From a virus: a stretch of DNA of 29,318 nucleotides. Below the pieces are notes generated by a model, which saw only the letters and a program-made list of their open reading frames with translations, made no database searches and had not been told where the DNA came from. The DNA is taken from IMG/VR virus record IMGVR_UViG_3300044858_001358, positions 1-29,318 of that record; one strand, given 5' to 3'. Both the position numbers and the translations under genes were made by a program. Of the stretch, positions 1,505-6,651 are shown piece by piece. Positions within the stretch are counted from its first letter, which is position 1, and every line of letters starts with the position of its first letter.

Positions 1505-1535
1505 AAGGGGGCAGCCGCAAACTGCCTCCTTTTTT
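1505..1535 (+). terminator. Rho-independent terminator after capsid gene
   Basis: GGGGGCAG (1507-1514) pairs with CTGCCTCC (522-529 of the same kilobase, i.e. 1522-1529) across a 7-nt loop, giving an 8-bp stem with one G-U pair, followed by six T. It sits 24 bp after the capsid stop codon and before the promoter for the connector genes. Confidence 0.9.
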
Positions 1536-3530: not shown

Positions 3531-3968
3531 ATGCCAACAACAGGAATTTTTAACGGTACAAATCTAGTAGTTCTAGTAGGAAGTGAAGTAGTAGCTCATT
3601 CTACATCATGTTCTTTATCAGTAAGCGTTGACTTACCAGATTCAACAACTAAATCAAGCAATGGATGGGCTGATCAAATTGGTGGTTTAAAGTCTTGGTC
3701 TTTGACTACAGATGGTCTTGCAACAGTTGAGCCAACTGGAGCTAACTTTGTTGTAGGGGATATTTTTACACAATTAGCTAGTAGAACAGCAGTTACAGTT
3801 AAGTTTACAACTGTTTCAACAGGTAGTACTGTTGTTCCAGGTGACTTAGTTTGGTCTGGTCTTGCTTTTATCGAAAGTTTAGATGTTACTGCTGATATGG
3901 AATCTCCAGCAACATATTCAGTTTCATTTACAGGAACAGGAGCATTGACTCAAGCTCCTAACCCATAA
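3531..3968 (+). CDS. Major tail tube protein
   Basis: This 145-residue beta-rich, Ser/Thr-rich protein has the tail-tube pattern of TP901-1-type major tail proteins: an N-terminal strand GTNLVVLVG, CSLSVSVDLPDSTTK, a W-containing hairpin (GGLKSWSLTTDGLATV), a helix-like GDIFTQLASRTAVTVKF, and C-terminal ESLDVTADMESPATYSVSFTGTGAL. Hexamers would stack to form the tail tube. It precedes the tail-assembly chaperone and tape measure, as expected. The protein at 8657 carries the same fold with an insertion. Confidence 0.88.
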   Translation: MPTTGIFNGTNLVVLVGSEVVAHSTSCSLSVSVDLPDSTTKSSNGWADQIGGLKSWSLTTDGLATVEPTGANFVVGDIFTQLASRTAVTVKFTTVSTGSTVVPGDLVWSGLAFIESLDVTADMESPATYSVSFTGTGALTQAPNP

Positions 3969-3989: not shown

Positions 3990-4361
3990 ATGAGAGGACA
4001 TTACGAACTATCCCTAAGCGATGGGACTAAGATACCTATGAGGTTTTGTACATGGTCTTTAAAAAGATTCTGTCAAATTCAAGGTATATCACCTGCTGAA
4101 ATAGGAGATGCTTTATCTGGAGAATCAACTATTGACGCTATTGTAAACTTGCTTAGATCAGCAGCAGAGTATCCTTTATATAAAGAAGGTATTACTCCTA
4201 ACTTTACTGACTTAGAGGTTTGCGATTGGATTGATGATATTGGTGGTATTGCAAGTGCTAAACTACAAGACATATTCAAAGTATTGTCTGATAGTATGGT
4301 AAGCGGTATAGATAATACCCCATCTAAGAAAGGCAAGAGTTCAGATGTAAAAAAAAATTAG
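3990..4361 (+). CDS. Tail assembly chaperone, zero-frame product (gpG-like)
   Basis: This 123-residue protein lies between the major tail protein and the tape measure, where lambda G lies. It has the look of Phage_TAC proteins: LSDGTKIPMRFCTWSLKRF, then helices QGISPAEIGDAL, IDAIVNLLRSAAEYPLY and ICDWIDD-like VCDWIDDIGGI. The last sense codons run gta aaa aaa aat before TAG at 4359-4361. The nine-A run there contains a classical A_AAA_AAA slippery heptamer in the correct phase for a -1 shift into the frame ending at 4675. The protein should coat or chaperone the tape measure during tail assembly. Confidence 0.85.
   Translation: MRGHYELSLSDGTKIPMRFCTWSLKRFCQIQGISPAEIGDALSGESTIDAIVNLLRSAAEYPLYKEGITPNFTDLEVCDWIDDIGGIASAKLQDIFKVLSDSMVSGIDNTPSKKGKSSDVKKN
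4349..4355 (+). promoter_or_regulatory. Programmed -1 ribosomal frameshift site A_AAA_AAA
   Basis: The heptamer 4349-4355 is in phase: zero-frame codons are 4350-4352 AAA and 4353-4355 AAA, with the preceding A ending a GTA codon. A -1 slip reads on as K-L-E-W-I-D-I-E-R-Y-T-M from 4355 and stays open to 4675. The -1 frame is closed upstream by TAA at 4325-4327, so the overlap of the two open frames is only 4328-4358. Confidence 0.85.
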
Positions 4362-4675
4362 AGTGGATTGATATTGAAAGATATACAATGGGGGAGTGCC
4401 AAGTGCTTCCCCATTTGTTTTGGGATATGACGATGGCTGAGTTAGATTTTGTTTGGTATGGTTACCGTCATAAAGAAGAACAAGAATGGTTAAGAGTAAG
4501 ATGGCAGACTACACTTTTAATCAATATTCAACTACCAAAGGGTAAAAAAGTTATGCCAGAAGAGCTTTTAAAGCTTGACTGCGATAATCGTAACTTTGTG
4601 AAACAAAGAGTAATGAGTAATGATGAATTACAAGAGGTACTAAAGAAATATAATAATGTTAAACCTATAGGATAA
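4355..4675 (+). CDS. Tail assembly chaperone, frameshifted extension (gpT-like part of gpGT)
   Basis: This is the -1-frame continuation of the gene at 3990; the full fusion would be 228 residues (122 zero-frame plus 106). An ATG at 4388 could start a separate 95-residue protein, but the coding sense continues upstream of it (LEWIDIERYT) right to the slippery run, favouring a fusion. The segment contains CQVLPHLFWDMTMAELDFV; 'FW.MT..E' is typical of the second tail-chaperone domain in siphophages. In lambda the T part recruits the major tail protein while G binds the tape measure. It ends in TAATG, coupling it to the tape-measure gene. Confidence 0.85.
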   Translation, partial: KLEWIDIERYTMGECQVLPHLFWDMTMAELDFVWYGYRHKEEQEWLRVRWQTTLLINIQLPKGKKVMPEELLKLDCDNRNFVKQRVMSNDELQEVLKKYNNVKPIG

Positions 4676-6651
4676 TGGCAGTAGAAGAATCAATTAAAAT
4701 TAAGATACAGGCAAACGCTGAAGAGTTCAAGATTGTATCTAATATTATTAATACAGAACTAGGAAAACTAGGTAAGAATTTTGAAATATTAGAAGGTAAT
4801 ATTAAGCAGACTTCTAATGCCATGAAAGGTTTTGATGGCTCATCTAAGAAGTTTAACAAAGGTATAATGAGTATCTCATTGATACTACAAGATTTACCTT
4901 ATGGTTTTAGAGGTATTCAAAATAACATCCCTGCATTAGCTCAGGGATTTGGTGTTTTATATTTAGCTGTATCTGCTGTTACAGCAGCAATGACATATTT
5001 TTTAATGCAGGGTGATAATATGTCTAAAGACACAAAGAAGATATATGAAACATTTAAAGAGTTTATTAATGGTGTGGTTAATCAGGTATATAATACATTA
5101 AAACCAGCGTTTGATTCAATAGTAAAATCAATCATGTTTTTATGGGATATGTTTGGAAACAATCTTATAAATCAGTTTAAATATATATGGGAAAATTTAT
5201 TAGCTTTTACTAAAATAGCTGGAAATATTTTAGCGGAAGCATTTAATTTGGTTACAAGTGTTATAAAGGGTGACTGGAGTAAATTTGGAGAATCTTTATT
5301 AAATATTTTTAAATATGCATGGAACGCTATAGTTCAATTTTTATCATTCAGTTTAAAAATGGTAGGAAATACTATAGGTGCTTTTACTCGAATATTTGAT
5401 AAAGATTTAGGTGACACAATAACCAAATCAACTGAATATACTGCTAATAAGTTTGCAGATAGTTTTAAGTTTGCATTTAAAGAAGTAGAAAAAGAAAGTA
5501 AGAAATTTGATATATTTTCTATTTTTGGTGGCAAAAAGAAAGGAGGGGATACAACTAAGGAATCATTTAAGGCTGATACTTCTAATTTAGATTTACTAAA
5601 AGCTCAAGAAAACTATTATAAAGATGATTTATTTATGCGTAGATATTACGCATTAGAGGTGCTTAAAGAAGAAGAGAAGTTAGCTTTAATGGAAGCTATT
5701 TTCAATAAATCAAGTATTGATACATTATCTAATATTGCAGAGCAGTTTAAAATTAAAAGACTTGCTATTGAAAAGTCTACTCTTGATGGTATTCAAGCTA
5801 TAAGAAATGATAATGCAAAAAGAAATGAAAAGTTTGAAAAAGATGAATTAGAGAGAGCTGAAAAGATACAAAAGGAACTACTAGATAGATCAGTATATTT
5901 TACTGAACAAAGAATAAAAGCTGTAAATACAGAAGCAGATGCTTCAATAAAAGCTAATAGAGGAAATTACCAAGCTCAAAAACAAGCGTTAGAAGAGGCT
6001 ATAGTAAAACTAGGTGTGTTTAGAATGGCAGGTATAGGTGGTGCAGAGGCTATGTTAAAATTAGACGAAGCTATTGGTAATAACAAAGCTAAGATTGAAG
6101 GTCTAATTGACCCTTTGGAAACTTTAAATCAGTCATTGCAAACTACATTTAATCAATTAAATATTGATTTATTAACAAACTTTGCTGATCAGATGGGAGC
6201 AATATTTGCTGGAGGTAAGTTTGATTTTAAACAATTAGGTAATATATTAGCAGATGGCTTATCTTCAATAGGTAAAGCCCTTATTGCTTTTGCAATTACT
6301 AATGGTGCTGCTATGAATTTGTTTAAAGACCCTAAAACCTGGCCTTTAGCTCTTGCTGCTGGTATTGCGGCAGTTGCAGCAGGTTCATTTTTAAGAAATT
6401 CAATGAATGAAAATAAAGCTACTGCATTTGCTAATGGTGGTATAGTTTCTGGACCAACTATGGGTCTTGTAGGTGAATATCCTGGTGCTCAAAATAACCC
6501 TGAGGTTATTGCACCTTTAGATAAATTAAAATCTATGATTGGTGGTGGAGGAGGTGGTACATTTGTACTTAGAGGTCAAGACCTTTTAGTATCAATCAAT
6601 AGAACTCAAAAATCATCTTTCCTTAAAGGTCAAAATATAAGTTTAGCATAA
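4675..6651 (+). CDS. Tape measure protein
   Basis: This 658-residue protein follows the chaperone, as tape measures do. It is helical with long charged coiled coils (about residues 300-440), Ala/Gly-rich hydrophobic stretches near residues 78-105 (NIPALAQGFGVLYLAVSAV) and 535-570 (LIAFAITNGAAMNLF, LALAAGIAAVAAGSFL), and a C-terminal region with a Gly run and the motif ANGGIVSGPTMGLVGEYPG, which is frequent in siphophage tape measures. It sets tail length and is ejected into the host envelope. At about 1.5 angstrom per residue it would give a tail near 100 nm (family rule of thumb). TAATG coupling exists at both ends. Confidence 0.88.
   Translation: MAVEESIKIKIQANAEEFKIVSNIINTELGKLGKNFEILEGNIKQTSNAMKGFDGSSKKFNKGIMSISLILQDLPYGFRGIQNNIPALAQGFGVLYLAVSAVTAAMTYFLMQGDNMSKDTKKIYETFKEFINGVVNQVYNTLKPAFDSIVKSIMFLWDMFGNNLINQFKYIWENLLAFTKIAGNILAEAFNLVTSVIKGDWSKFGESLLNIFKYAWNAIVQFLSFSLKMVGNTIGAFTRIFDKDLGDTITKSTEYTANKFADSFKFAFKEVEKESKKFDIFSIFGGKKKGGDTTKESFKADTSNLDLLKAQENYYKDDLFMRRYYALEVLKEEEKLALMEAIFNKSSIDTLSNIAEQFKIKRLAIEKSTLDGIQAIRNDNAKRNEKFEKDELERAEKIQKELLDRSVYFTEQRIKAVNTEADASIKANRGNYQAQKQALEEAIVKLGVFRMAGIGGAEAMLKLDEAIGNNKAKIEGLIDPLETLNQSLQTTFNQLNIDLLTNFADQMGAIFAGGKFDFKQLGNILADGLSSIGKALIAFAITNGAAMNLFKDPKTWPLALAAGIAAVAAGSFLRNSMNENKATAFANGGIVSGPTMGLVGEYPGAQNNPEVIAPLDKLKSMIGGGGGGTFVLRGQDLLVSINRTQKSSFLKGQNISLA

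Follow-up and report, generated by a model that had tools for sequence, protein, structure and literature searches.

A conserved RNA hairpin followed by a U-rich tail (4387–4421) lies inside the −1 reading frame of a phage tail assembly chaperone gene, downstream of an A run at which a G/GT fusion protein is very likely produced. The original prediction for this DNA proposed the frameshift and missed the hairpin, which is the main feature of the locus; the A-run frameshift is a known trick, and the conserved hairpin that accompanies it is the new part. The sequence analysed, called the window here, is the whole 29,318-base virus record, which perhaps represents its genome only in part. Should transcription end or slow at the hairpin, the choice of frame and the length of the transcript would be coupled at one point, namely where the many-copy tail parts give way to the few-copy parts.

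The two chaperone frames and their shift site

Two small open reading frames (ORFs) lie on the plus strand between the gene of the major tail (tube) protein (3531..3968; phrog_1407, E 9.1e-24; Pfam Phage_tail_2, E 1.1e-8) and the gene of the tape measure protein (4675..6651, also plus strand; phrog_1272, E 2.5e-9), which is the lambda-type G/GT arrangement and bears out the position that had been assigned to them. The first, G-like ORF (3990..4361, 123 amino acids) ends with GTA AAA AAA AAT TAG, and its A9 run (4349..4357) contains an in-phase A_AAA_AAA heptamer (4349–4355) that a single codon (AAT) separates from the 0-frame UAG stop (4359..4361). The T-like domain is read after the slip in the −1 frame (4355..4675; phrog_16333, E 1.7e-10), which is free of stops up to 4675, so that the fusion product would have 228 residues. 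The coordinates proposed earlier for the A run, the heptamer, the −1 frame and the fusion thus hold, and the proposed G/GT layout with slippage on the A run is supported, with the heptamer in phase, the −1 frame open and the site kept in relatives. The −1 frame has its first ATG at 4388, where default gene calling would indeed place the start of the second part. The Bacteroidota setting also agrees with the major capsid protein, whose best matches among those listed are Flavobacterium phage 11b and Cellulophaga phage phi10:1, with 35% identity.

In the case of T, the claim of a recognisable chaperone domain needs correction, because the Pfam match to Phage_TAC_6 is below threshold (E 0.05) and ranks under DUF6922 (E 0.0056, likewise below the cut-off), and phrog_16333 is a family without a named function. 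The first ORF has no match of weight in Pfam, PHROG or NCBIfam, and it is by predicted fold alone that it appears chaperone-like: in the BFVD fold search the best named tail assembly chaperone came at E 0.014, just behind a match named as a tail tube protein (E 0.010). Neither sequence nor fold searches of the PDB yielded a credible match for G (model pLDDT 70) or T (model pLDDT 77). The G protein had no tblastn hit among cultured phages at E 0.01, and two tblastn scans of genome contigs with the G and T alignments found no relative. The G protein of L251, a distant relative described below, matches the tail assembly chaperone family phrog_4888 weakly (E 0.016).

The searches of the viral collection covered the best 80 of 112, 80 of 426, 80 of 431 and 80 of 351 relatives. 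The one made with the first ORF, with patterns that exclude the shift site, gave as its best 80 of 112 relatives sequences that are 66–100% identical; GTAAAAAAAAATTAG is kept in 80/80 of them, and the −1 frame is open in 80/80, with 3 of them cut off by the end of the contig and the rest open as far as the frame usually extends. Over all readable window-clade loci the first ORF ends with A9 or A10 in 307/307 (301 A9 and 6 A10, the latter by substitution of GTA to GAA), in 142 distinct contexts, a count that includes many fragments of shared contigs and some loci from a T-pattern search whose pattern touches the site; 7 further loci lack a readable first ORF. We also compared synonymous change in 81 sequences, of which 3 without a complete T were dropped and the remaining 78 reduced to 66 distinct fusions. 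The reference codons of these 66 fusions change normally (863 synonymous changes observed vs. 876.4 expected), and the four slip codons do not change at all (0 vs. 44.2 expected). A first-order model expects about 1.3 runs of A9 or longer in 29 kb, and the one at 4349–4357 is the only one in the window; away from the site, the first 80 window-clade loci hold 8 A runs of at least eight in 412,653 bases. An A9 run per se is therefore not rare in this AT-rich sequence, but neither where it lies nor how well it is kept is due to chance. Inspection of the relatives by eye gave no conserved Shine-Dalgarno-like stimulator upstream of the run.

More distantly, a T-profile search reached L251, whose T is 30% identical to that of the window (E 5e-12) and whose G is 29% identical (E 0.003). 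A further search with the T of L251 gave 73 loci, and after leaving out 3 truncated ones, an in-phase A_AAA_AAA was present in 70/70 loci covering the site (A9 in 64, A8 in 3, namely L386–L388, and A10 in 3), with the phase established by script for 67 and by reading for 3. In this L251 clade long A runs are also found elsewhere, with 58 off-site runs of at least eight in 351,277 bases, far above the figure for the window clade, so that such runs are not rare everywhere.

Among cultured phages, the first ORF of phi10:1 ends with CAA AAA AAA GAT TGA, an A8 run with T in −1 (E 2e-6 against the window T), and Flavobacterium phage 11b reads GAT AAA AAA AAA GTG ... GCG AAA AAG TAG, an A9 run with T in −1, in which the slip point could be either the A9 or the later G_AAA_AAG. 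Two other relatives, L242 and L250, also have T in −1, with G_AAA_AAG and five A only. Cellulophaga phage phi39:1 (L082, NC_021804.1) has an A8 run at 2942–2949, at the end of gp19, and the frame of its gp20 needs a +1 or −2 shift. An A-rich −1 site is thus usual among the T-family members seen, with exceptions. The frame oddity of phi39:1 may be a real difference or a one-base error of the record.

We consider it very likely that a G/GT fusion is produced at the A run, because the homology of T reaches upstream of ATG 4388. A W.D.E motif 5′ of this ATG is common to the window, L242, phi39:1 and L251 in alignment, and in 30 distinct elements the substitutions between the 0-frame stop and the ATG are synonymous or conservative when read in −1 (D/E, R/K, Y/F, T/S). 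The −1 frameshift is supported by every comparative sequence test that bears on the site itself. The alternative is an independent T gene of the usual kind, with its start at 4388, an incidental upstream −1 frame and a hairpin that controls initiation; it has in its favour that ATG 4388 is the default call and that the records of phi39:1 and 11b list separate genes, and the phi10:1 sequence, with ATG ATG just 5′ of its A run, also counts against the fusion reading. We judge this alternative very improbable in view of the protein-type conservation and homology 5′ of ATG 4388, the placement of this ATG inside a strong stem, and a shift site fixed in all readable relatives. Translation starting at 4388 is unlikely since the ATG sits in the foot of the 13-bp stem described below and since the homology of T extends upstream of it. 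The spanning peptide VKKKLEWIDIER would be cut by trypsin and would be yielded by ribosomal and transcriptional slippage alike, and the LEWIDIER peptide would by itself be sufficient to rule out a start at 4388. In annotations, the two genes should be merged into one.

The hairpin and its U-rich tail

The hairpin AAUGGGGGAGUGC-CAA-GUGCUUCCCCAUU (4387..4415, plus strand) has 13 pairs and a folding energy of about −18 kcal/mol, includes ATG 4388 in its foot, and is followed by the terminator-like U-rich tail UUUGUUUU (4414..4421). None of 2000 synonymous codings of the segment is equally stable (z about −6.8), and in a control of 195 windows of the same length from other late genes the minimum z was −4.1. 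The 66 distinct fusions reveal selection at the RNA level over this segment: synonymous change is 0 vs. 100.7 expected in the hairpin codons, 0 vs. 26.5 in the tail codons TTG TTT, and 13 vs. 39.0 in the six codons after them, and the ten codons that span hairpin and tail, GGG through TTT, have a joint usage of 4e-8. The −1-frame codons that precede the hairpin, between the 0-frame stop and the stem (4362..4386, plus strand; LEWIDIERYT), are likewise constrained (12 vs. 103.6), and this stretch folded alone has no structure, since 585/1000 synonymous codings are as stable. When the viral collection was scanned for T motifs whose Gly codon is not GGG, five contigs came up, none of which encodes T on translation.

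The sole paired change seen in the window clade is that of L145 and L159, which lie outside the 66 fusions; there TGC has become TGT, half of a pair-keeping double change by which a CG and a UG pair of the stem have both turned into UA. The covariation score of the window clade is reached by 18/500 shuffles. Compensatory synonymous changes are found in the L251 clade, where a hairpin of different letters occupies the homologous coding position. The Gly and Arg third bases of this clade pair in 23/23 (GC 9, UA 9, CG 3, GU 2), and in its main register (12 distinct sequences) the cells that pair amount to 98.4% and the covariation score is 0.205, a value reached in 0/500 shuffles; 244 of 500 shuffles reach the count of pairs changed on both sides, and 173 of 500 that of further pair types, so that two of five measures do not exceed the shuffles in this first register. 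In the second register (9 distinct sequences) all cells pair, with no two-sided change. Against synonymous codings the L251-clade hairpins have a median z of −3.2, with the weakest at −1.8; at most 3/300 codings are as stable in 34/46 distinct sequences, and one sub-lineage has a weaker hairpin (14/300 as stable in L381).

The rates of change in the L251 clade, analysed in 65 loci (50 distinct), repeat the invariance of the tail, with 0 changes vs. about 22.8 expected in tail codons 120–122, and Thr codon 126, four codons past the tail, is as invariant (0 vs. 8.7). The codons that separate stop and hairpin are free to change in this clade, and two of them show 21 vs. 6.4 and 16 vs. 5.2 changes. 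The stem of phage 11b is longer, differs in sequence and runs into UUUUU (0/1000 synonymous codings as stable, z −6.5; minimum z −2.5 in 51 control windows), and phi10:1 has a modest GGGG...CCCC stem at the same place, matched by 5/1000 codings of a short segment and 26/1000 of a longer one. The relatives without a −1 A run, L242, L250 and phi39:1, have no hairpin beyond what coding predicts (129/500, 88/500 and 317/500 codings as stable), L242 being able to form a 7-bp stem at the hairpin position. The hairpins of the different lineages mostly carry a U-rich tail, and by hand count the spacing from A run to stem is 29 nt in the window, 40 in L251, 36 in phi10:1 and 52 in 11b, whereas that from 0-frame stop to stem is 25, 17, 30 and 31 nt in the same order.

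The form of the element, a G+C-rich stem and then a U-rich tract in the window, and a stem and then UUUUU in 11b, is that of an intrinsic terminator. A terminator consensus scan of both strands over 19 kb found 22 candidates vs. 7.2 in shuffles, with the 4387 hairpin in the top row. The U-tail score of the window is only near the 95th percentile of its genome, and its T content does not exceed what the encoded amino acids would give (0.48 of synonymous codings as good in the window, and 0.14–0.23 in the L251 clade). The same scan marked a terminator-like hairpin and U tract after the major capsid gene (1505..1531, plus strand), which serves as a comparison; AAGGGG-like hairpins with changed stems follow that gene in 12 of the 24 printed rows of relatives, and the other 12 have a different, weaker hairpin or none. 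The sole Rfam match, to the L20 leader (E 0.17, below the gathering score), was taken as chance.

Slippage mechanism and hairpin function

The original prediction allowed that the nine-A run might also permit transcriptional slippage, and the A8–A10 runs of the A-run lineages do reach the homopolymer length (8–9 or more A or T) associated with it. Slippage by the ribosome on A_AAA_AAA and slippage by RNA polymerase on A9, in which messages with A10 would encode GT in frame, lead to the same protein and are inseparable from sequence, and a fixed run of 8–10 A speaks for either. In one study, A-run cassettes shift more with length, 10% with 7 A, 40% with 9 A and 63% with 11 A (PMC3711429), and therefore either mechanism could be efficient. 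We consider ribosomal slippage probable, since L242 and L250 use G_AAA_AAG with five A only, which points to the ribosome, and since the A8 is retained in L386–L388. Slippage of the polymerase would explain why the run has 8–10 A in all A-run lineages seen, why the A8 of phi39:1 needs a different shift, and why the −1 Lys codon never has G at its third position in the window clade, although G is silent there in the −1 frame, but the last A's of the run also belong to a 0-frame codon; we regard polymerase slippage as possible and rather unlikely.

Regarding the hairpin, its most likely role is that of a leaky intragenic terminator or attenuator, a reading that we hold with about as much belief as doubt. 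Most translation of the first ORF would stop at 4361 and give G (123 amino acids), and a minority of −1 shifts on A9 would give GT (228 amino acids), with the second domain fused to G. Ribosomes stopping at 4361 would leave the hairpin free to fold and cut transcription, while full-length messages would carry T, the tape measure gene and later genes, and such attenuation would hold T and the tape measure protein scarce relative to the tail tube and G. We tentatively suggest a translation-coupled attenuator, in which stopping or shifting at the A run would decide whether the terminator folds and so would set both the G:GT ratio and the amount of tape measure and later tail RNA. The constraint between stop and hairpin, which is present in the window clade and absent in the L251 clade, is not explained by a terminator alone.

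Classical −1 programmed frameshifting has a stimulatory structure 5–9 nt past the heptamer, and a stimulator is one alternative role of the hairpin: the window folds as a long irregular stem (4362–4438), much of which RNAalifold keeps, and its weaker lower part, 6 nt past the heptamer, would stall the ribosome, while the strong stem begins 31 nt past it. We at first favoured this long lower stem, and gave it less weight after finding that its pairs are broken in up to 9/30 sequences and that the L251-clade codons between stop and hairpin are free to vary. The constraint of the same stretch in the window clade still argues for a stimulator, and downstream hairpins accompany many A-rich sites in bacteria (PMC4066793); the distance from A run to stem, however, differs across the four lineages (29–52 nt), and the constraint runs beyond the stem into the U tail, so that we consider a stimulator unlikely. 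Clearance of the region by terminating ribosomes fits better, because the distance from stop to stem keeps within 17–31 nt. In both clades the stem also encloses the T-frame ATG that comes first downstream of the slip site, and the hairpin might instead serve to keep T from being started there on its own, with GT as its only form; this leaves the invariant U tail of both clades unexplained, and the 5′ arm of the 11b stem has no T-frame ATG, and we find the idea doubtful. An intragenic attenuator, as a hypothesis, is the reading that we prefer.

Relation to known systems

Tail chaperone frameshifts are widespread, and none is known to us in which the shifted frame contains a conserved hairpin of terminator-like form. 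In lambda the slippery heptamer is GGGAAAG, and the window differs from it by a pure-A run (8–10 A in the A-run lineages) in place of a mixed heptamer; to our knowledge, no conserved hairpin with a U-rich tail has been reported inside the T coding region of lambda. The T7 case concerns gene 10, the capsid gene. Among open-licence papers, titles and abstract openings described no hairpin or terminator in tail chaperone frameshift genes.

For lambda G/GT and its relatives in long-tailed phages, reviewed in PMC5009743, the layout is the same as in the window: tail tube and tape measure genes flank two ORFs, an in-phase heptamer comes just before the stop, and the second domain is in −1. The same review reports that the T7 gene 10 frameshift involves a CCCC within a terminator more than 200 nt 3′ of the site (PMC5009743). 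Like the window, T7 gene 10 thus has a frameshift site followed by a terminator-type hairpin that contains CCCC, but in the window and its relatives the hairpin lies within the −1 frame, 17–31 nt past the 0-frame stop. The A-run genes collected with GeneTack (PMC3711429) resemble the window in their long A runs, in an efficiency that rises with length and in including clusters of tail assembly chaperones; the chaperone genes tested there shifted at 6–7% and are similar to an HK97 protein, unlike those of the window.

Of the cultured phages, phi10:1, 11b and phi39:1 share with the window a homologous T domain and an A run that ends the first ORF, with −1 as the shift in phi10:1 and 11b; their stems differ from that of the window, and phi39:1 would need its +1 or −2 shift. 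Both 11b and, more weakly, phi10:1 carry versions of the hairpin, so that its function can be tested now. The annotation of 11b and phi39:1 gives separate hypothetical genes, and in phi10:1 (L402, NC_021802.1) the first chaperone ORF with its A8 site, at 36528–36902, is missing from the listed annotation (gp085, between gp084 and gp086).

Synonymous change in the window clade is also low in two regions away from the hairpin. Fusion codons 1–29 (3990–4076) change at 0.37–0.48 of the expected rate, which could reflect an initiation signal, and fusion codons 196–203 (4574–4597, LDCDNRNF) show 24 synonymous changes vs. 88.2 expected (z −8.0).
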